Shown: one piece after another, positions 6,507-32,219 of the stretch | Layout: each line of letters opens with the position of its first letter | Position numbering within the stretch: the stretch's first letter is position 1 | Assembly (NCBI GenBank): GCA_004322275.1 | Contig: SCTA01000017.1 | Coordinates: 75,595-108,263 of the forward strand | Length of the DNA stretch: 32,669 bases | Reading direction: 5' to 3' | Source: a bacterium | GTDB taxonomy: Bacteria; Desulfobacterota; Deferrisomatia; Deferrisomatales; BM512 | Notes under the pieces: generated by a model | The model's input: the letters and a program-made list of their open reading frames with translations, nothing else | Told to the model about the DNA's origin: nothing | The model's database searches: none | Program-made: the position numbers and the translations under genes

Positions 6507-6953
6507 ATGTTTAAGAAACTTCAGAGCAAAAAAGGCTTCACACTGATCGAGCTCATGATCGTCGTGGCAATTCTGGGCGTCCTCGCCGCCGTCGCGATCC
6601 CCCAGTACCTCGACTACATCGCGGCTTCCAAGACCCGCGCCTCGATGTCCAACTACGACACCGCCATCAAGTCCGTCAAGGGCGAATTCGCCAAGAGAAC
6701 CGCCGGCAAGGGCGCTTCCGCCGACTTAGTGGCCATGCTGAACGACGCAGGCCGCAACGTGAACCCCTACGAGCCCAGCCAGGCCGCTTATCTGTCCGGC
6801 ACCTCCCCCGCACTCGGCCAGGTCGGCATCGACCCCATTGACGCCAGCGCGGCCACCGGTATCGCCCAGGGCGAAACCATCACCGTCACCGGCAATTACC
6901 TCGACATGGCCGGAACGGCTCAGACCAAGACCATGATCCTCACCTACGAATAA
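6507..6953 (+). CDS. pilA: Type IV major pilin (PilA-like prepilin)
   Basis: Structural subunit of a type IV pilus, processed by prepilin peptidase and assembled through the inner membrane. The ATG at 6507 has a strong AGGAGG at 6496-6500 with ideal spacing; the open frame extends upstream but without translation signals. The 148-residue preprotein has the leader [10 protein letters not shown], cleavage before Phe11, and the class IVa N-terminal helix [20 protein letters not shown] with Glu at mature position 5. The mature chain (138 residues) has no cysteines, so there is no C-terminal disulfide loop, and it is far longer than the roughly 60-residue Geobacter nanowire pilin. All 11 Ile codons are ATC or ATT, unlike its neighbours, indicating high expression. 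A sigma-54 promoter precedes it and a terminator follows. Confidence 0.93.
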
Positions 6954-6974
6954 GCTGCAAAATCATTAAGTCAA

Positions 6975-7010
6975 AGGGGAGGAGCCAGACGGCCCCTCCC
7001 CTTTTTTTTT
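6975..7010 (+). terminator. Rho-independent terminator after the first pilin gene
   Basis: A GC-rich 12-bp stem with one mismatch (6975-6986 pairing with 6991-7002) is followed by nine T residues (7002-7010). The T tract ends directly before the ribosome-binding site of the second pilin, so it probably reduces rather than abolishes its expression from the pilA promoter. Confidence 0.85.
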
Positions 7011-7024
7011 GAAAGGGATCGCAG

Positions 7025-7453
7025 GTGAGAAAAAGAGGCGGCTTTACGCTCATCGAGCTGATGATAGTTGTCTCGATCCTCGGAGTATTATCGGCGGTGG
7101 CCATACCGCAGTATCTCTCCTACGTCGAGATATCCAAAAGAGGCGTCACGATTTCCAATTTCAGAACCGCCATAAAAGCCGTCCAGGGAGAGATATCGAA
7201 AAAGACGACCGGAAAACCGGTTGCCTCGGACATGGTCCTGACCCTCAACGATCTCCAGAGAAGAAACAAGGACCCCTACGACAGCAGTCTCGACGCCTTT
7301 ACCGACTTCGGGGCTACACAATTGGGGCAGGTAGGAATATCCGTAAGGGATTTTCGGCCCCTGAACCCGGGAGATACCATCGATTTAAGCGTCTCCTACG
7401 TGGAAAACGACGGGACCGTCGCCAGCAGAACGGAGACGGTAACGGTGAGATAG
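7025..7453 (+). CDS. Type IV pilin-like protein, paralogue of the upstream major pilin
   Basis: A 142-residue prepilin from a GTG start, preceded by AAAGGGA (7012-7018). The short leader MRKRGG is followed by the helix [21 protein letters not shown] with Glu at mature position 5. Alignment by eye shows it is a tandem paralogue of the upstream pilin: YLxY after the helix, conserved AIK, KGEF/QGEI, MVLTLND against LVAMLND, a shared LGQVGI and a similar beta-strand ending. Codon use differs: 6 of 10 Ile codons are ATA, none in the upstream gene. It is therefore probably a low-abundance minor pilin or an alternative subunit. A strong terminator separates the two genes. Confident as a pilin-family protein; its role in the fibre is unknown. 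Confidence 0.88.
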   Translation: MRKRGGFTLIELMIVVSILGVLSAVAIPQYLSYVEISKRGVTISNFRTAIKAVQGEISKKTTGKPVASDMVLTLNDLQRRNKDPYDSSLDAFTDFGATQLGQVGISVRDFRPLNPGDTIDLSVSYVENDGTVASRTETVTVR

Positions 7454-7536
7454 ACCGGCGGGAGGCGAAGAACCCCCCGCTTGCCATATTCCGGCTTTTT
7501 CGCTATTTTGTTTTTATGCGAATCGGGAGGCTTGCC

Positions 7537-7956
7537 ATGGTTGCCAAAAGAGCGAAAAAAGGCTTTACCCTTGTCGAACTGATGATAGTCGTGGCGATAT
7601 TGGGTGTGCTCGCCGCCATTGCCGTTCCCCTCTACACCGGATACGTCGAGGATGCGAGACAATCCGAGGCGACGGCCAACCTGCAGGTGATAAGAACCCT
7701 CGAAGAGCAGTATATCGCCGACGAAGGAACTTACGTTGCGGGCAGCTATACGGAGTCCTCGACCACCCTTCAGACCGCCCTTGAGGGGTTCCAGCCGGGA
7801 GCCGCCACGGGCCTGAGCTACGACTACGTGGTCACGGTGACAGCCCCGCCTAATCCAACCTTCCTTGCCAAGGCGACCCGGAAGTCCGACACCTCGAAGT
7901 GGTTTTCGATTACTGAGGCTAACGTTAAGGTCGATCAGAGCGGTACCGGCTGGTAG
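7537..7956 (+). CDS. Type IV pilin-like protein (third, divergent paralogue)
   Basis: A 139-residue prepilin. The ATG at 7537 has GGGAGG (7525-7530) six bases upstream; an in-frame ATG at 7516 lacks one. Leader MVAKRAKKG, then [20 protein letters not shown] with the conserved Glu at mature position 5, followed by YTGYVEDARQSEATANLQVIRTLEE, which resembles the PilE/minor-pilin type more than the two upstream genes. The C-terminal domain (TYVAGSYTESSTTLQTAL... SKWFSITEANVKV) is unrelated by eye to its neighbours and has no cysteines. It lies 83 bp after the second pilin. A pseudopilin of a secretion system is an alternative, but no secretion genes are nearby. Confidence 0.85.
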   Translation: MVAKRAKKGFTLVELMIVVAILGVLAAIAVPLYTGYVEDARQSEATANLQVIRTLEEQYIADEGTYVAGSYTESSTTLQTALEGFQPGAATGLSYDYVVTVTAPPNPTFLAKATRKSDTSKWFSITEANVKVDQSGTGW

Positions 7957-8169
7957 ACGGCTTCGGCTTTTGCCGTTACTCGGCGCATCCTTTTCGTCCC
8001 CGGCTTCGTCATGTCCTCGCTCAAAGGCTCGCCGTAGCGCTGCTACTGCCTCGCCCTTTCACTGCGCGGCTCCTCGCCTGCGGGCCGCTCGCTGGTTTTC
8101 CGGGAGTTTCTTGTAACTGCGACCGCGCTCCCTGCGGGCTCCTCGCCCGGCGACAAAATCCAAAGCCGT
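7957..8169. repeat. Inverted-repeat-bounded intergenic element, family 2, long copy
   Basis: It begins immediately after the stop codon of the third pilin with ACGGCTTCGGCTTTTGCCG (7957-7975) and ends with the inverted copy CGACAAAATCCAAAGCCGT (8151-8169). The last 42 bp (8128-8169) nearly match the end of the element after uvrD (32073-32114). Inside, 7998-8073 closely matches the reverse complement of the family-1 repeat near 11.8 kb, suggesting nesting or shared ancestry. No convincing reading frame is present. Confidence 0.7.
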
Positions 8170-8182
8170 TTGTAAAAGCTCC

Positions 8183-8212
8183 GTCATTCTCGCCCGGAGG
8201 GCGGGAATCCAG
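8183..8212. repeat. REP-like hairpin repeat (CATTC...GAATCC type)
   Basis: A 10-bp stem (8186-8195 with 8199-8208, one G-T pair) and a three-base loop, within a sequence of the widespread bacterial form CATTC-GC-rich-GAATCCAG. It lies in the convergent gap between the third pilin and rdgB. Confidence 0.55.
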
Positions 8213-8245
8213 AAATATAAAACGCACCTTTCCTCAGTCGCGTAG

Positions 8246-8271
8246 GTCGGATTGAGGTACGAAAATCCGAC
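8246..8271. repeat. REP-like hairpin (GTCGGATT...AATCCGAC) just past the rdgB stop
   Basis: A perfect 8-bp inverted repeat (8246-8253 and 8264-8271) with a 10-base loop, of the common GGTCGGATT-type dispersed repeat. It sits one base beyond the rdgB stop codon and could terminate or protect the minus-strand transcript. Confidence 0.5.
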
Positions 8272-8272
8272 A

Positions 8273-10667: not shown

Positions 10668-11720
10668 ATGAGCCGCAAGGACTATTATGAACTTCTGGGC
10701 GTCCAAAAGGGCGCGACCGAAGACGAGATAAAGAAAGCTTTCAGGAAACTCGCCCGCAAGCACCACCCCGACGTAAACCCCGGCAACAAGGCCAGCGAAG
10801 AGAAATTCAAGGAGGTTTCCGAGGCTTACGAGGTGCTCTCGGACAAGGAAAAGAGGGAGAAATACGACCGCTTCGGCCCCGAGGGGTTCGAGCCCGGTCA
10901 GGGAGGACCCGGAGGGGGAGGTTTTCACTGGACGGGAGGGCAGGGGCAGGGGTTCGATTTTTCCGACATCTTCGGCGATCTTTTCGGCGGCGGGGGCGGG
11001 GCCACCGCGAGGCGTTCGAGGGGGGAGGACCACGAATACGACCTCGAAATACCCTTTAGCGAGTCTATCCTCGGCGCGGAAAAGGAGATTTCGATACAGA
11101 GGAACGTCTCCTGCGGAGTTTGCGGGGGCAGCGGCTACCTCTCCACCGGAAACGGGCAGGTCTGCCCCGACTGCGGCGGCCGCGGAAGCGTGGAGATGCG
11201 CATCGGGCCTATGGTCACCCGCCAGCCCTGCCACAGGTGTAAAGGGAAGGGGCGTTTGCCCGGCCCCACCTGCAAGGAGTGCGCGGGAAGGGGCACGGTG
11301 CCGAAAAAGGAGCGTCTCCGGGTCAGGATTCCTCCGGGAGTCGAAAGCGGCTCGAAGGTGAGGGTGCCGGGCCACGGCGAGCCGGGACTTAGCGGCGGCC
11401 CCTCCGGCGACCTCTTTCTGGCGATACGGGTTCGCCCGGACGAGCGCTTCCACCGTGAAGGGGACGACATCGTCACCAGAGTGCGGATACCTCTTCCGGA
11501 CGCTCTCCTCGGCGGCTTTGCGCTTGTGCCCACTCTCGGGGAGGCGGTGCGGATGAAGGTGCCGCCGGGCATTCAGAACGGCCAGAGACTCCGCATAAAG
11601 GACAAGGGCGTCCCCGGCAGGGGCCACCTCTACGCCGAGGTCTTCGTGGAGATACCAAAAAAACTTTCGCCGGAGACAATCGAGGCGCTTGAAAAGATTC
11701 GGGATCAGCTGAAAGGTTGA
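10668..11720 (+). CDS. dnaJ: Chaperone DnaJ (type I Hsp40)
   Basis: Co-chaperone that stimulates DnaK ATPase and delivers unfolded substrates. The ATG at 10668 has GAGAGG six bases upstream, giving a 350-residue protein starting [11 protein letters not shown], the standard DnaJ N-terminus; upstream in-frame ATG and TTG codons have poorer spacing. The J domain has HPD at 33-35, followed by a Gly/Phe-rich stretch, a zinc region with four CxxCxGxG-type motifs ([32 protein letters not shown]) and the two-lobed C-terminal substrate domain. It is slightly shorter than the E. coli protein. dnaK and grpE are not adjacent, so it may be a second or stand-alone DnaJ. Confidence 0.94.
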
Positions 11721-11768
11721 AGTTTCTCTGGAAATCCGGCTAACAGTTTTTTTTAAGAGGGTGGTCAG

Positions 11769-11890
11769 AAAAACGTCGCGAGAAGCCCCGGATTCAAGGA
11801 GACGCGGAGTGATGGGGCGAGGCGGTAGCAGCGCTACGGCGAGCCCCTGAGCGAGCACGCGACGACGAAGCCGGGGCTCGCAGCAGTTTT
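11769..11890. repeat. Dispersed palindromic repeat, family 1, copy between dnaJ and comEC
   Basis: This 122-bp unit matches the reverse complement of 24023-24166 at both ends and in the middle: AAAACGTCGCGAGAAG then TTCAAGGAGACGCG on one side, GAGCGAGCACGCGACG internally, and CGGGGCTCGCAGCAGTTTT on the other. The two ends are themselves partly complementary. It has no coding capacity and ends 24 bp before comEC. The rest of the gap (11721-11914) contains a T8 stretch at 11747-11754 without a clear stem. Confidence 0.75.
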
Positions 11891-11914
11891 CCAAGCCTGG
11901 GGGGGCTTAAAAGG

Positions 11915-14323
11915 ATGCTACAGACGGGGGGAATACTGGCGCTGGCCTCCGGCGTCTACTGGAGCCAGAGCGTGTTTTATGCTTCGCTCATGGCGTTTCT
12001 GGCCCTTTGCGCGGTTTTGGGCGCGGCCGCCCCCTCGCGTCATAAAATTCTCGCCTCTCTTTCCCTCCTCCTGCTCTTTGCCGCCGGTTTCCTCTCGCTG
12101 AACCGGCCCCCGCCCTCGACTCTTCCCTTTTACGAGGAAAAGAGATTCTACGGGACCGTCGCGAAGGACCCCCGCGCGGTGACCGGCGGAGTCAGCGTAG
12201 AAATAGACCTTCGCGGCTTCGCCGGGCCGGAGCCGTCCGGGGAATGGTCTCCTCTTTCGGGCAGGATTCTGCTGAACCTGCGGGGTGAACCGGCGAAACC
12301 GCCCTCTCCCGGCGAGGCGGTTTTTTTCAGGTCTGCGCTGAAACCTCCGGAGGGGTTTAGAAACCCCGGCTCCGAGTGGCGGCCCTTTTATTTCCGGCGC
12401 GCCGGTATCGTCGCCAGAGCTTCCGCCGGGTATCCGGGAGAGGTCTTTTTCGCCTCGCCCAAGGAGGAGGGAGCGGCCCTCGGAGCGAGAAGGGTTCTTG
12501 GCGACGCAATCGGCGAAACATTGCCCGGAGAGGAGGGGGCGGTCCTTCGCGCCCTTACCCTGGGCGACTGGTCGAGGGTCTCGCCGGGAGTCCTTGCCGA
12601 GTTTAGAAAATGCGGGACCACTCATCTCCTTTCGGTCTCCGGTTTTCACCTCGGCATTGTGGCGCTGGGCGCGATGGCGCTGGCGACTTTCCTGTGGTCG
12701 CGCACTTTCGCTCTGGCCCTTCGTTTTCCCGCTCCCCTCGCGGCGAAACTTCTGGTCTTCCCACTCCTCATAGCCTATACCCTCCTCACCGGCTCACAGG
12801 TAGCCACCCTTCGCTCCCTCGTCATGGTGCTTATCGTCCTTGCGGGGAACCTTATCTGCCGCAGGGTCTCCCCCTTCGTCTCCATCGCATCGGCGGTGCT
12901 TTTTCTGGGACTTTGCGACCCCTCCATCCTCTTCGACCCCGGCCTTCATCTCTCTGTCGCCGCCCTCGCCGGTCTCTTCTGGCTCGCCCCGGCGCTACGC
13001 GAAGTTCTTGGGAGGGAGAAAGAAGAGGACGGGGTTGAAAAGCTCCTGCCGAAGAGCCGGGCAAGGAAGCTTTGGGATTTCGTCTACGGCAAAGGCAGGG
13101 ATATTTTCATCCTGAGCGCTTCCGCGACTCTTGCCACCATGCCCCTAAGCGCTTATTACTTCGGGGGGGCGAGCTGGATGGGACTTCTTGCGAACCCCGC
13201 CGGAGTGCCGATTGCGGGTGCGCTCGCTTTGCCGCTTGGAATTCTCGGGGCCTTCGTTTTTCCGCTGTGGGAGGGGGGCGCAAGACTGGCTTGGGAGGGC
13301 GCGGGGGCTTCGATCTCCCTCCTTTTGTGGATTCAGGGGAGGCTCGCGCCGTTAGCGTCGGAGATAACCGGGCCTTTCACAACCTTTTTGCCGGTCGCGG
13401 GGGCGTGGCTCCTCCTTTTTTCCTTCGTCCTCTTCAGGAAGGAGAGGAGCAGCGCTCGAAAGAGGCTGGCGGTTGCCGGTCTCGGCGCGCTCCTGCTGGC
13501 CGGGCCGCCGCTCGCCAAGGCCCTGGAAGAACGCTTCGACCAAAGCGGGCATATCTGGATGATCGAAGCGGGCCATGGGGAGTCGGTGATCCTCAGACTG
13601 CCGCGCAAGGGGTTTAGGCCGCCCCTGTGGATTGTCGCGGACGGAGGGGGTTTCCCCGCCTCTACCTTTGACGTGGGCGAAAACATAGTCCTTCCCGCCC
13701 TCCGGACGCTGGGCTGCGAAAGACCCGAAATCGTCATGTCGACCCATCCCCACCCGGATCACGTTCTGGGCCTCACGGCTGTAATCAGGGAGGGAAAGCC
13801 AAAATACCTCTGGCTTCCGGCTTCCTTTTACGGGGATTTCCGCTACCAGCCCGCCCTTGCGGCGGCGAAGGAGGCGAATACCGAAGTCGTCTGGATTGGC
13901 CCGGGGGGGTACGACCGGGAGGACGCGGGAGTGTCGCTTGCCGTTTATCCGGCCAAGGGGCCCGAGGAAAACGACAGGTCGATCGCCCTCGTGGCGCGCT
14001 TTGGGGGCGCGGCGGTCCTCATACCGGGAGACGTTGAAAAGGAGGGGCAAAATTCCCTTCTTGAGCAGGGTCTCTCGGGTCACTTCGCTTTCGCGGCCGC
14101 TCCCCACCACGGCTCGGCGAACGCCGTCAATGAAAGGTTTTTCTCGAACGTGGAGGTGGATTTTTACCTTGTAGCGGCTGGAAAGGGGGAGTCTTTGCCC
14201 TCGAAGAAGTTTTGCGAAACCGTGGACAAACTCGGCAGGGCGTATCTGATTACCGGAAAGGAGGGGGCGCTGCACGGGGTTTTCGGCCCTTCCCCGCCCA
14301 GAATTGTTGAAGGCGCGCGTTGA
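11915..14323 (+). CDS. comEC: ComEC/Rec2 DNA-uptake channel protein
   Basis: Inner-membrane channel that passes one DNA strand into the cytoplasm during transformation. The 802-residue protein has the full family order: two N-terminal membrane segments and a DUF4131-type domain (about 1-170), a multi-spanning Competence domain (about 200-500, with CGTTHLLSVSGFHLGIVALG at its start), and a C-terminal metallo-beta-lactamase-like domain with THPHPDHVLGL near 610 and PHHGSANAVN near 730, which may be a nuclease. Translation start is reasonable, with AAAAGG directly before the ATG, but the spacing is short. With the pilins 5 kb upstream it suggests, but does not prove, natural competence. Confidence 0.93.
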   Translation: MLQTGGILALASGVYWSQSVFYASLMAFLALCAVLGAAAPSRHKILASLSLLLLFAAGFLSLNRPPPSTLPFYEEKRFYGTVAKDPRAVTGGVSVEIDLRGFAGPEPSGEWSPLSGRILLNLRGEPAKPPSPGEAVFFRSALKPPEGFRNPGSEWRPFYFRRAGIVARASAGYPGEVFFASPKEEGAALGARRVLGDAIGETLPGEEGAVLRALTLGDWSRVSPGVLAEFRKCGTTHLLSVSGFHLGIVALGAMALATFLWSRTFALALRFPAPLAAKLLVFPLLIAYTLLTGSQVATLRSLVMVLIVLAGNLICRRVSPFVSIASAVLFLGLCDPSILFDPGLHLSVAALAGLFWLAPALREVLGREKEEDGVEKLLPKSRARKLWDFVYGKGRDIFILSASATLATMPLSAYYFGGASWMGLLANPAGVPIAGALALPLGILGAFVFPLWEGGARLAWEGAGASISLLLWIQGRLAPLASEITGPFTTFLPVAGAWLLLFSFVLFRKERSSARKRLAVAGLGALLLAGPPLAKALEERFDQSGHIWMIEAGHGESVILRLPRKGFRPPLWIVADGGGFPASTFDVGENIVLPALRTLGCERPEIVMSTHPHPDHVLGLTAVIREGKPKYLWLPASFYGDFRYQPALAAAKEANTEVVWIGPGGYDREDAGVSLAVYPAKGPEENDRSIALVARFGGAAVLIPGDVEKEGQNSLLEQGLSGHFAFAAAPHHGSANAVNERFFSNVEVDFYLVAAGKGESLPSKKFCETVDKLGRAYLITGKEGALHGVFGPSPPRIVEGAR

Positions 14324-19009: not shown

Positions 19010-19486
19010 ATGAAGCTCACTACGAAAAGCCGCTACGGCGTACGAGCGATGTTCGACATTGCCTACAATGCGGGAGGGCTTCCGGCGCAGATAAAGGATA
19101 TCTCCGAAAGGCAGCGGATAAGCCCCCGCTATCTGGAGCAGATATTCCAGAAGCTAAAGAAGGTCGGCATTCTCGGCAGCAAGAGGGGCCCCAAGGGCGG
19201 CTACTACCTCAAGAAAGCTCCCTCCGAGATCACCCTCTACGAGATAATAACCGCTACGGAAGGCCCAATAGAACTCGTCTTCTGCGTCGGGACGGACGAG
19301 GAGGGAGTTTCCTGCGGGGCTGTCTGCGAGATGAAGGGCGAGTGCGTGGCCAGCGAGCTCTGGAAGGACATAGGCGACAAGATCGCCGACATCTTCAAGG
19401 AGACCACCATTCAGACCCTTTGCGACAGGGCCGAGCAGTTGGGGATTGAGAGGAAGCTGGACGCGAGGTTCATGTACTTCATCTGA
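19010..19486 (+). CDS. Rrf2/IscR-family transcriptional regulator
   Basis: A 158-residue winged-helix repressor of the Rrf2 family, which senses iron-sulfur status, redox state or related signals. The N-terminus MKLTTKSRYGVRAMFDIA and the recognition region ISPRYLEQIFQKLKKVGILGSKRGPKGGY are diagnostic. Four cysteines lie in the usual cluster-binding loop: Cys92, Cys102, Cys106 and Cys112 (CX9CX3CX5C), unlike the CX5CX5C of E. coli IscR, so a cluster is plausible but with different ligands. It has its own strong promoter and is not next to isc or suf genes, so the target is unknown. The stop codon runs directly into a repeat. Confidence 0.88.
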   Translation: MKLTTKSRYGVRAMFDIAYNAGGLPAQIKDISERQRISPRYLEQIFQKLKKVGILGSKRGPKGGYYLKKAPSEITLYEIITATEGPIELVFCVGTDEEGVSCGAVCEMKGECVASELWKDIGDKIADIFKETTIQTLCDRAEQLGIERKLDARFMYFI

Positions 19487-19571
19487 AAACCGCTGCGAGC
19501 CCCGGCTTCCTATTTCGGCTATGCCTGCCCCCGGAAGCCTCTAGCGGACTCCTTGCCCTCCACCGAAATAG
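19486..19571. repeat. Degenerate family-1 repeat fragment with a 9-bp inverted repeat
   Basis: The first 24 bp (19486-19509), beginning at the last base of the upstream stop codon, match the terminus of the repeat at 11769-11890 (reverse complement) at 23 of 24 positions. The rest diverges, but CTATTTCGG (19510-19518) and CCGAAATAG (19563-19571) form a perfect inverted repeat. No gene lies between 19487 and 19709. Confidence 0.55.
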
Positions 19572-19654
19572 TTTGCCGGAGAGAAGAAAATCTTTCACGG
19601 CTCGGGCAAGGACAGGTACTTGCGACCGGCGCTTGACTGACTATGATTTAGGCT

Positions 19655-23851: not shown

Positions 23852-24025
23852 ATGGCCGAGGGCATAAGGGCGGAAGTCGAAAAGAGGGCGCGGGAAGGCA
23901 AAATATCCTGCAAGGAAGCCTTAAGGCTGGCTAACGAGCTGGGGGTTTCTCCCGCCGAGGTGGGCAAGGCGGCGGACGAGCTGAAAATCAAGATAGCAGG
24001 ATGTCAGCTGGGCTGTTTTAAATGA
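23852..24025 (+). CDS. 57-residue protein of unknown function with a C-terminal CQLGCF motif
   Basis: ATG after AGGGGAAA, eight bases past the upstream stop, encoding 57 residues, rich in Ala, Lys and Glu. The pattern KISCKEALRLANELGVSPAEVGKAADELKIKI reads like a helix-turn-helix or small helical bundle, with one Cys (20), then GCQLGCFK at the end with two more Cys. I have a recollection of similar short proteins with this ending in deltaproteobacteria, but cannot name a function. Possible roles are metal binding through the three cysteines or a small regulator for the upstream thiol protein, both inference. Its stop TGA is the first three bases of an inverted repeat element. Confidence 0.7.
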   Translation: MAEGIRAEVEKRAREGKISCKEALRLANELGVSPAEVGKAADELKIKIAGCQLGCFK

Positions 24026-24166
24026 GGCTGCCCAAAAACTGCTGCGAGCCCCGTTTTCTGCGTCGCGTGCTCGCTCGAAAGCTCGCCTAACACCCGGTTA
24101 TGTCTCGCTTCTCGCTGCGCGTCTCCTTGAAACCGGGTCTTCTCGCGACGTTTTAGGACAGCCTCA
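24023..24166. repeat. Family-1 palindromic element, full copy with terminal inverted repeats
   Basis: 144 bp, starting TGAGGCTGCCCAAAAAC and ending with the complement of TGAGGCTGTCCTAAAAC, so the 17-bp ends differ at about two positions. The ends resemble the GAGGCTGTCCCAAAA-type termini of some insertion sequences (from memory). The interior matches 11769-11890 in inverted orientation. Its two terminal TGA triplets are the stop codons of the small gene on the plus strand and of pth on the minus strand. No reading frame is inside. It may also act as a two-way terminator. Confidence 0.75.
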
Positions 24167-29734: not shown

Positions 29735-31993
29735 ATGAACGAGACTGAAAACGACCCCATCCTAGCGGCGCTGAACCCGCCGCAGAGAGAGGCCGTCACC
29801 TTCGGGGACGGACCGCTCCTCATACTCGCCGGGGCGGGAAGCGGAAAGACGCGGGTGCTTGCCCACCGCATAGCCTATCTCGTCGAGCGCAGAAACGTTC
29901 CGCCCTCCTCGATCATCTCCCTTACCTTTACCAACAAGGCCGCCGGAGAAATGAAGGAGCGGGTGGCCGGGCTACTCGGCGGGAGCCTCCACGGCGCGTG
30001 GCTCGGCACCTTCCACTCGATCGCGCTGAGAATCCTGCGGACCCACGGCGAGCTGACGAAGTGGGGGGCCTCCTTTTCCGTTTACGACTCCGACGACCAG
30101 AAAAGACTGGCGAAGGACGTAGCGGCTTCTCTTTCGCTCGACACGAAAAAATACAAACCGGCGTCCCTGCTGGCCGGGGTCTCCCGCGCGAAGGACGACG
30201 GGCGGGGGTTTTCCGACTTCGAGGTGCCGGGGGTTTCCGCCTCCCCCCACGCGAAGGTCTTTTACTCCTTTTACAAGCTCTACACCCTCCGGCTCCAGAA
30301 CGCCCGCGCCCTCGATTTCGGCGACCTTCTCCTCGAAACCCTGCGCCTCTTCGAGGAGCGCCCGGAGATCGCCCGCCGATACGCCGAAAAGTTCCGGCAC
30401 GTTCTCATTGACGAGTATCAGGACACAAACCGGGTGCAGTACCTCCTCGCGGGCCATCTATCCAGCGTCTGGGGGAACATCTGCGCCGTCGGCGACGACG
30501 ACCAGTCGATCTACGGCTGGCGCGGCGCGGACCTTCGCAACATCCTCGATTTCGAGAAGGATTTCCCCGGCACGAAGATAATAAAGCTGGAGCAGAACTA
30601 CCGCTCCACCGCCGCGATTCTGGAGGCCGCCGCCTCGGTCATCTCCCACAACGTCGGCCGCCACAAAAAGACCCTCTGGACCTCCCGAAAGGGGGGCGTC
30701 CCGGTGGTTTGCCACACCGCCTCGACCGAGGAGGAAGAGGCGCAGTGGATAGTCGAGAAGATAATTTCGCTCCTCAAGGAAGGGCAAAAGTTAAAGGATA
30801 TCGCCATCCTCTACCGCACCCACGCTCTCTCCCGCCCGGTCGAAGAGGCGCTGATGGACAGGGAGCTTCGCTACGTGGTCTACGGGGGGCTGCGCTTCTA
30901 CGAGCGCAGGGAGATAAAGGACGCGATGGCGTGCCTGCGGCTTGTGGCCCAGCCTTACGACCCCGTAGCCCTGAAGAGGGTGATAAACGAACCCCCTAGA
31001 GGCATCGGCGACAAGACCGTCGCGGCTATTTTCAGTGAATCCGAGGCGAGGGAGCTGGACCTTTTCGCCACGATGAGGCTGATGGTGGAGGAGGGAGTCC
31101 TTCCTCCCCGCGCCTCCCGCGCCGTGGCCGGTTTCATAGAGCTTGTCGAGGGGTGGCGGATAGCCCACGCCGAAGGCGAGCGCCTCGGCGACCTTCTTTC
31201 GCGGATACTCCGGGAGAGCGGCCTTAGGGGCGCGCTGGAGAGGGCGAAGGAGGACGAGAAAGAGGCGGAGAGGCTTGAAAACCTCGAGGAACTCCTCAAC
31301 GCCGCCGACGTTCACGCGGCCGAGGGCGGCACCGTGCTCTCCTTTCTGGACAGGGCCGCGCTCATAAGCGATCAGGAGAGCGGCAAGCCGGGGTGGGACG
31401 GAATGACCCTGATGACCATCCACTCCGCCAAGGGTCTCGAATTCCCCTGCGTCTTCATCGCCGGGATGGAGGAGGAGGTCTTTCCCCACGCCCTCAGCAG
31501 CAGCTCGAAGGAGGAGGTGGAGGAGGAGCGAAGGCTCTGCTACGTGGCCATGACGCGGGCGAAGGACAGGCTCTTCCTCACGAGGGCGAGGGTAAGGCGG
31601 GTCTTCGGCGCGGAAGGGCTCTTCCGTCCGCCGAGCAGGTTTCTCTTCGAGCTTCCCGAAAAGATATGCCCCAGGGATTATCCCACCGCCCGTCCCTGCC
31701 CCGAGAAGAGGGGCTTTACCGTTCCTCCCCGCATCCCGCCGAAAAGCGAGGCCGCGCCGCAGAAAGAATACGCTCCCGAGGCGAAAACAAACGGCCGCTC
31801 CCTCAGCGTCGATCCCGAGAACTGCGACTACAAGAAGGGGATGAAGGTGCGCCACCCGAAGTATGGCGACGGCGTGGTGACGGCGACGGACGGAAGGGGG
31901 CCGACGGCGAGGGTTTCGGTGGATTTCCGAAGGGGTGAAAAGAAAAAATTCGTTGCCGGACTTTCGGGTTTAGAAATTTTAATCGACGACTGA
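29735..31993 (+). CDS. uvrD: ATP-dependent DNA helicase UvrD/PcrA
   Basis: SF1A 3'-5' helicase for excision and mismatch repair and clearing of replication. The 752 residues have all the motifs: Q/Ia region LNPPQREAV, Walker A AGAGSGKT (32-39), TFTNKAAGEM, LIDEYQDTN (motif II), VGDDDQSIYGWRGAD (III), LEQNYRS (IV), MTIHSAKGLEF (V) and YVAMTRAKDRLFLTRA (VI). The C-terminal 55 residues (VRHPKYGDGVV ... GLEILI) form the Tudor-like domain known to bind RNA polymerase in PcrA/UvrD, which favours this over Rep. The ATG lacks a clear ribosome-binding site. Its stop TGA is the first part of a repeat element. Confidence 0.95.
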   Translation: MNETENDPILAALNPPQREAVTFGDGPLLILAGAGSGKTRVLAHRIAYLVERRNVPPSSIISLTFTNKAAGEMKERVAGLLGGSLHGAWLGTFHSIALRILRTHGELTKWGASFSVYDSDDQKRLAKDVAASLSLDTKKYKPASLLAGVSRAKDDGRGFSDFEVPGVSASPHAKVFYSFYKLYTLRLQNARALDFGDLLLETLRLFEERPEIARRYAEKFRHVLIDEYQDTNRVQYLLAGHLSSVWGNICAVGDDDQSIYGWRGADLRNILDFEKDFPGTKIIKLEQNYRSTAAILEAAASVISHNVGRHKKTLWTSRKGGVPVVCHTASTEEEEAQWIVEKIISLLKEGQKLKDIAILYRTHALSRPVEEALMDRELRYVVYGGLRFYERREIKDAMACLRLVAQPYDPVALKRVINEPPRGIGDKTVAAIFSESEARELDLFATMRLMVEEGVLPPRASRAVAGFIELVEGWRIAHAEGERLGDLLSRILRESGLRGALERAKEDEKEAERLENLEELLNAADVHAAEGGTVLSFLDRAALISDQESGKPGWDGMTLMTIHSAKGLEFPCVFIAGMEEEVFPHALSSSSKEEVEEERRLCYVAMTRAKDRLFLTRARVRRVFGAEGLFRPPSRFLFELPEKICPRDYPTARPCPEKRGFTVPPRIPPKSEAAPQKEYAPEAKTNGRSLSVDPENCDYKKGMKVRHPKYGDGVVTATDGRGPTARVSVDFRRGEKKKFVAGLSGLEILIDD

Positions 31994-32114
31994 CGGCTTC
32001 GGCTTTTGCCGCGGGGCTTTGTCGCTTCTCGCTCGCGCTCCTTGCCGTAGGCACGCTACTGTCTGCGTCGCGCTCGCTGCGGGCTCCTCGCCCGGCGGCA
32101 AAATCCTTTGCCGT
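31993..32114. repeat. Inverted-repeat-bounded intergenic element, family 2, short copy after uvrD
   Basis: ACGGCTTCGGCTTTTGCCG (31993-32011), overlapping the uvrD stop codon by one base, is identical to 7957-7975. It ends with the inverted CGGCAAAATCCTTTGCCGT (32096-32114); the last 42 bp closely match 8128-8169. The 122-bp unit has no coding content and is rich in GCGAG-type motifs. Confidence 0.7.
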
Positions 32115-32149
32115 ATATAATAAAAAAATTCTGCTTTCAGCCATGTAGG

Positions 32150-32164
32150 GTGGGCACGGCCCAC
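32150..32164. repeat. Small hairpin repeat (GTGGGC-ACG-GCCCAC)
   Basis: A perfect 6-bp stem with a three-base loop in a sequence of the common GTAGGGTGGGCACGGCCCACC type found dispersed in many bacterial genomes. Confidence 0.5.
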
Positions 32165-32219
32165 CAATATATAAACCTTAATGTAATTCTATGCTTGCGG
32201 GCTGCCCGCCCGCGCCCGG

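Follow-up and report, generated by a model that had tools for sequence, protein, structure and literature searches.

A high-copy hairpin repeat of a Deferrisomatales bacterium with a structured core shared across phyla

Many small bacterial repeats are limited to one species or genus. Among the closest described systems, 24 dispersed, intergenic "predicted short RNA elements" with the central palindrome GRCGTAGCGCTGCTACGCC were reported in Geobacter metallireducens, with similar sequences in other Geobacter and in Desulfotalea; the portions of that paper on which we draw do not propose mobility for them (Aklujkar et al. 2009, PMC2700814). Further multicopy sequences have been listed in Geobacter bemidjiensis and Pelobacter (PMC2996986, PMC3543383). 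MITEs, such as the 127-bp RU-1 units (PMC2759123), are intergenic, gene-free, high-copy sequences with imperfect terminal inverted repeats. REP and REPIN sequences, which are moved by RAYT (PMC3733652, PMC3116915), are palindromic and high-copy and form single-strand hairpins; REPs are 20-40 nt long and carry a GTAG or CGTC tag (PMC3733652).

The element described here resembles each of these systems in part. Genomes of the phylum with GRCGTAGCGCTGCTACGCC have it in hairpins of the same part order (AAGGYG ... GGAGGCGTAGC-GCTACGCCG ... AACGCAG), and two of the genomes with this palindrome (G106 and G159) also matched the core model described below. However, the core and arm sequences of the Geobacter family (Gmet_R1005 group) differ from those of the present element, and the exact palindrome was absent from the host genome. 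Judged by palindrome and layout, the Geobacter family is probably a distant relative. The present element is similar to MITEs in size, position, terminal repeats, lack of genes and copy number, but differs from them in its cross-phylum structural core and variable outer ends, and neither a parent insertion sequence nor a consistent target duplication was found for it. Its strand asymmetry would suit a single-stranded DNA mechanism of the REP/REPIN kind, whereas its length (~145 nt), a layout unlike that of tagged REPs and the absence of a Y1/RAYT gene from the host set it apart. In the Rfam search of the window (the whole stretch of 32,669 nt that was analyzed) only tRNAs reached the gathering score, and permissive searches of 24 loci gave nothing near any gathering score on the element. 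Plasmid and phage BLAST gave no matches, one viral contig found by pattern scored weakly with the core model (24 bits), and a literature search by core sequence gave no match. The view that the family is uncatalogued was thus borne out for Rfam, plasmids and phages, and has to be qualified by the related Geobacter repeat (PMC2700814).

The window contained four cores that matched our covariance model R1. The features are as follows.

11757..11903, + strand: copy 1 in full, outer arms included; its neighbors are a dnaJ-like gene that ends at 11720 and a comEC-like gene that starts at 11915
11770..11890, + strand: body of copy 1, AAAAC...GTTTT (host contig C17:87364-87484)
11794..11867, + strand: conserved structured core of copy 1 (R1 match C17:87388-87461, 77.6 bits, E 3.5e-16)
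24022..24166, - strand: copy 2 in full, outer arms (GAGGCTGYCC / GGRCAGCCTC) included; it lies between convergent genes, and the pth-like one ends at 24164
24058..24130, - strand: conserved structured core of copy 2 (R1 match C17:99652-99724, 91.2 bits, E 1.2e-19)
8004..8077, - strand: sister-subfamily core whose arms differ (GAGCGAGGACATGACG variant); a longer repeat at 7956-8175 apparently encloses it (R1 match C17:83598-83671, 72.1 bits)
19485..19509, - strand: only the right terminus, joined to a different hairpin (CTATTTCGG...CCGAAATAG)
31992..32120, - strand: type-2 relative with ACGGCAAAGGATTTTGCCG / CGGCAAAAGCCGAAGCCGTC arms; core at 32017-32091 (R1 match C17:107611-107685, 47.8 bits, E 1.5e-8)

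An earlier note on this DNA had reported two full copies in opposite orientation, and both were present, with AAAAC...GTTTT bodies at 11770-11890 (+) and 24035-24154 (-); with its outer arms, copy 2 spans 24022-24166, which bears out the extent given in the note (24023-24166). Its list of two copies and two fragments in 33 kb needs correction: the core at 32017-32091 had been missed, and the supposed fragment at 7998-8073 has an entire core (8004-8077) whose outer arms are different and which is apparently nested in the repeat at 7956-8175. The second fragment (19486-19509) is indeed partial, being right-terminal only, and is also joined to a different hairpin. The note's description of conserved ends around a variable center holds only in part: AAAAC and the unpaired letters of the core are conserved, the helices vary compensatorily, and variability is greatest in the outermost ~13 nt. 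The arms of the inverted repeats in the window were complementary at 91% (43 nt), 85% (53 nt) and 82% (79 nt).

Other repeats were observed in the same window. A second repeat family (GACGGCTTCGGCTTTTGCCG ... CGGCAAAATCCTTTGCCG) at 7956-8175 and 31992-32120 has the core architecture in common with the first; its copy at 7956-8175 is longer and seems to contain another nested element. At 19485-19600, a third hairpin type (CTATTTCGG...CCGAAATAG) is fused to a type-1 right end, and similar fusions at two further loci (L049 and L057) suggest recombination among subfamilies. Two short palindromes at 8186-8272 (TCTCGCCCGGAGGGCGGGAATCCAG and GTAGGTCGGATTGAGGTACGAAAATCCGAC) look like further dispersed repeats, and a short palindrome at 32147-32167 (GGGTGGGCACGGCCCACC) is also repeat-like. 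Three tandem type IV pilin-like genes at 6507-7956 resemble one another where they encode the N terminus, with 67-74% DNA identity across 97 nt.

In the host genome (2,882,786 bases, or 2.88 Mb, in 45 contigs), copy 1 gave at least 42 BLAST matches, and at least 40 places had E ≤ 1e-21, with 40 of 149 candidates scored. The end AAAACTGCTGCGAG occurred 119 times in the host at no more than two mismatches, against 27 times for the reversed control. The earlier note had proposed building a covariance model and searching the genome with it; model R1, which covers the ~73-nt core, found at least 146 host places at E ≤ 1e-4, a lower bound with 150 candidates scored. The repeat family is far above chance level.

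The full element is ~145 nt long and is written here in the orientation AAAACGTCGCGAG...CTCGCAGCAGTTTT. From the outside inward, it consists of an outer arm of ~13 nt, AAAAC/GTTTT, a GC-rich stem and the core, and the core is laid out as CAAGGAGMCGCGCAGCGA-stem-GAGRCA-hairpin-GRCGAG-stem-GAGCGAGCACGCGACGNAG. Full-length copies were aligned in A1 (57 sequences), and folding and placement were assessed on 54 copies; AAAAC/GTTTT was constant in nearly all of the 54. The element has no coding capacity, being too short and variable for a gene, and most copies, read by eye, had no intrinsic-terminator T run beyond either arm. Several copies have lost the core and retain only the arms (L039, L064, L072 and L075). 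Other host subfamilies combine the same core with other arms (window 8004-8077, window 31992-32120 and L057), which indicates that the parts are modular, with a constant core and exchangeable arms. Two tRNA genes at one locus (L083, host contig C2:9700-10200) enclose a full copy together with part of a second one, and the flank CCTGTGAATTT is repeated.

Copy number was uneven among relatives. R1 cores in five genomes of the host's family numbered at least 146 in the host, 5 in a genome of the same genus (G001), and 26 (G003), 0 and 0 (G002 and G004) in other genomes of the family. When 297 genomes of the phylum were surveyed with stricter filters, 14 genomes in several families, each with arms of its own, had core-model matches; the same core was present in multiple copies, with different outer arms, in other Desulfobacterota. 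When GTDB genomes were scanned for the motif at the 3' side of the core (GAGCGAGCACGCGACGNAG), 88 stretches were obtained, of which approximately 25 scored 63-79 bits with R1. Three of these came from G003, and the other high-scoring stretches were from Gallionella, Sideroxydans, Guyparkeria, Chromatiales and other Beta/Gammaproteobacteria (E about 1e-13 to 1e-16 for core matches in Gallionella, Sideroxydans, Guyparkeria and a Chromatiales MAG); most of the remaining stretches are weak and probably chance matches. Among the genomes behind 14 loci, we counted 24 and 25 copies in Gallionella, 37 in Chromatiales USCg_Taylor and 7 in Guyparkeria. Two Gallionellaceae copies (L238 and L285) have another small hairpin inserted in the apical core, with both core halves intact.

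The compensatory changes in stems that the earlier note had suggested looking for were found, with strong covariation, in two core alignments: A2 (44 sequences from the host genus and family) and A3 (32 sequences across phyla). In A2, 96.1% of the stem cells were paired, compared with 78.0% in shuffles, with 104 two-sided changes vs. 27.8 and a covariation score of 0.482 vs. 0.148. In A3, 96.2% of cells were paired, with 71 two-sided changes vs. 24.6 and a score of 0.454 vs. 0.150. In neither alignment did any of 500 shuffles reach the observed values (for A2, on any of three measures), although these counts are not probabilities because the copies are related. When partners were shifted by 1-3 columns, the covariation signal was lost in both A2 and A3; the A3 structure was hand-drawn from the A3 sequences themselves, which favors it over the slid versions.

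The helices of the core are interrupted by tandem G·A mismatches that were invariant in A3: 19·59, 20·58 and 28·49 were G·A in 32 of 32 sequences, and 27·50 in 31 of 32. Columns 24·55 and 25·54 were mostly Watson-Crick in the host group and formed another tandem G·A in the beta/gamma group. Non-Watson-Crick cells in the 23 stem pairs of A1 were G·T in 42 cases and A·C in 11, and without the largest-contributing pair (17 cells) the counts were 25 and 11, cells that are not independent given the shared ancestry of the copies. Of the two strands, the forward one had the more stable fold in 38 of 54 copies (Wilcoxon P = 2e-4). The excess of G·U over A·C in the stems indicates that one strand, as RNA or as single-stranded DNA, is the folded form, and such a bias is not expected under a double-stranded or strand-neutral function. 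The bias fits RNA and single-stranded DNA alike and does not discriminate between them.

Outer arms were specific to each copy. Over the outer 14 nt, the left and right arms matched far better within a copy than between copies (5.69 vs. 3.01; z = 12.5, 2000 permutations), and the match ended past ~13 nt (z = 0.3 further out). Gallionella-type copies also showed a within-copy match (z = 7.2). The ends are therefore copy-specific yet complementary, a pattern that may come from compensatory change, from rectification between the arms or from copying of the target flank. Insertion into a common pre-existing hairpin is not supported, as only one arm-like empty hairpin was found in the host and one in G002.

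The arm pattern is unlike a fixed transposase-binding end, and it bears on the possibility that the element is an ordinary MITE, that is, a deletion derivative of an insertion sequence whose DDE transposase reads the outer inverted repeats (RGAGGYTGTTGAAAAC), the inner structure being incidental or selected merely for hairpin formation. Terminal inverted repeats, lack of coding capacity, intergenic insertions and uneven copy number all agree with such an origin, and so do outer ends that are alike in several lineages (GGCTGTTGAAAAA-like). An element moved by a DDE enzyme should, however, have its outermost bases most conserved, and here they are the least conserved, whereas the inner core stays while arms change from lineage to lineage. 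No longer transposon or insertion sequence with these ends was found in the host at two or fewer mismatches, and the host places within two mismatches of GAGGCTGTTGAAAAAC paired over short distances only. For target duplication, the best result of the scan was a weak 4-nt excess at the arm edges, where 1.65 letters of 4 matched vs. 1.07 (z 4.7 in a set of 3200 correlated tests), and no consistent target-site duplication was established. We regard an ordinary MITE as unlikely.

The search for a mobilizing enzyme covered the usual candidates. A RAYT/HUH (Y1) transposase (PF01797) was rejected, with no gene in the host or G001 and one each in the element-free G002 and in G003, and reverse transcriptase was rejected because it is missing in several element-rich genomes. 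No transposases were found between neighboring copies, where the intervening genes are ordinary host genes. With these candidates looked for and none found, our confidence in a mobile structured element is moderate.

Insertion polymorphism had been proposed in the earlier note as a further check, and the two host sites that were compared are empty in relatives; neither is one of the window's two copies, and the intergenic DNA is too diverged for base-level junctions. At the ffh-rpsP gap, the host has an element (L018) that the same-genus genome G001 lacks (L175). At the gap before yajC, the element of the host (L012) is missing from both G001 (L171) and G002 (L184), and on this sequence comparison the yajC-gap element is polarized as a gain in the host lineage. 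These empty sites, together with the 0 to 26 copies in sister genomes, indicate that copies have been gained, and the element thus appears to be mobile.

With genes predicted by a simple codon model for which the window served as training set, nearly all of the 54 host copies were intergenic. A gene boundary lay within 15 nt of the right end in 29 of 54 copies and of the left end in 7 of 54 (Fisher P = 1e-5), the usual neighbor at the right end being the stop codon of an opposite-strand gene. At the beta/gamma loci, the right arm mostly lay 0-4 nt from a same-strand start codon, with TAGAGG at the ribosome-site position, or from an opposite-strand stop codon. Orientations of elements within contigs agreed in 46 of 75 pairs, only slightly above chance (P = 0.048). 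A relation between orientation and replication was set aside, as GC skew was too weak for use (window mean 0.012).

An alternative that would agree with several of these observations is a cis-acting structured RNA that selection maintains in untranslated regions, where it might, for instance, mask a Shine-Dalgarno sequence. In Gallionella loci the right arm (TAGAGG...ATG) resembles a ribosome-binding site whose pairing partner is the left arm, in beta/gamma loci the start codon of a same-strand gene often follows the end of the right arm by 1-4 nt, and covarying helices, conserved non-canonical motifs and the excess of G·U over A·C on one strand would fit a folded RNA; the Geobacter relatives were, moreover, published as predicted short RNAs (PMC2700814). 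Host copies, however, had no fixed relation to transcription: the strands of the upstream and downstream genes relative to the element were opposite and opposite in 20 cases, same and same in 13, same and opposite in 13, and opposite and same in 7. The upstream gene was in the same orientation in 26 cases and in the opposite orientation in 27, which argues against a uniform role in that gene's transcript. Sites empty in relatives and widely different copy numbers within one family also weigh against a cis-acting RNA, which we consider improbable. Passive template switching at long imperfect palindromes during replication, which would keep the stems of old repeats complementary without selection and, as quasi-palindrome correction, would yield the copy-specific arms that match within each copy, is very improbable and disfavored as the whole explanation, since it should remove the tandem G·A mismatches as well, which are invariant across phyla, and since it predicts no strand asymmetry (G·T 42 vs. 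A·C 11), although it could contribute to the outer arms.

We return to a mobile structured element, as distinct from a simple terminator, which the earlier note had suggested and which the covariation, the uneven copy number and the two empty sites support. It seems somewhat probable that the element is a non-autonomous mobile hairpin of ~145 nt recognized in trans through its folded core on one strand. Mobility combined with a conserved one-strand fold suggests recognition of the folded strand by a trans-acting factor. The element would fold as one long hairpin, with a core in which the tandem G·A mismatches lie between short helices; the factor would most likely recognize the core as folded in one strand, either single-stranded DNA or RNA, and would insert copies into small intergenic gaps, often with the right end at a gene boundary. 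Both the movement by a factor that reads the folded strand and the nature of that factor are what we infer from these patterns, and conservation of the core across phyla could instead reflect a host function. More tentatively, and with considerable doubt, the element may represent a new class of mobile element across phyla, whose folded strand is read by a trans enzyme and whose ends are remade at each insertion; if the ends were, for example, copied from the target flank, each copy would acquire its own matching arms.

What is new here is the size of the family in the genome, the cross-phylum core, the ladder of G·A mismatches, the strand bias and the copy-specific arms. A structure of ~73 nt that is nearly letter-for-letter the same from Desulfobacterota to Beta/Gammaproteobacteria, at tens to more than 100 copies per genome, is unusual among small bacterial repeats. 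One covariance model may bring together scattered "multicopy sequences" and "predicted short RNAs," and it opens to experiment the question of how such elements move where neither RAYT nor a matching insertion sequence is present. Through insertion at stop codons and ribosome-binding sites, the element may also affect how genes are expressed in bacteria of the iron and sulfur cycles.
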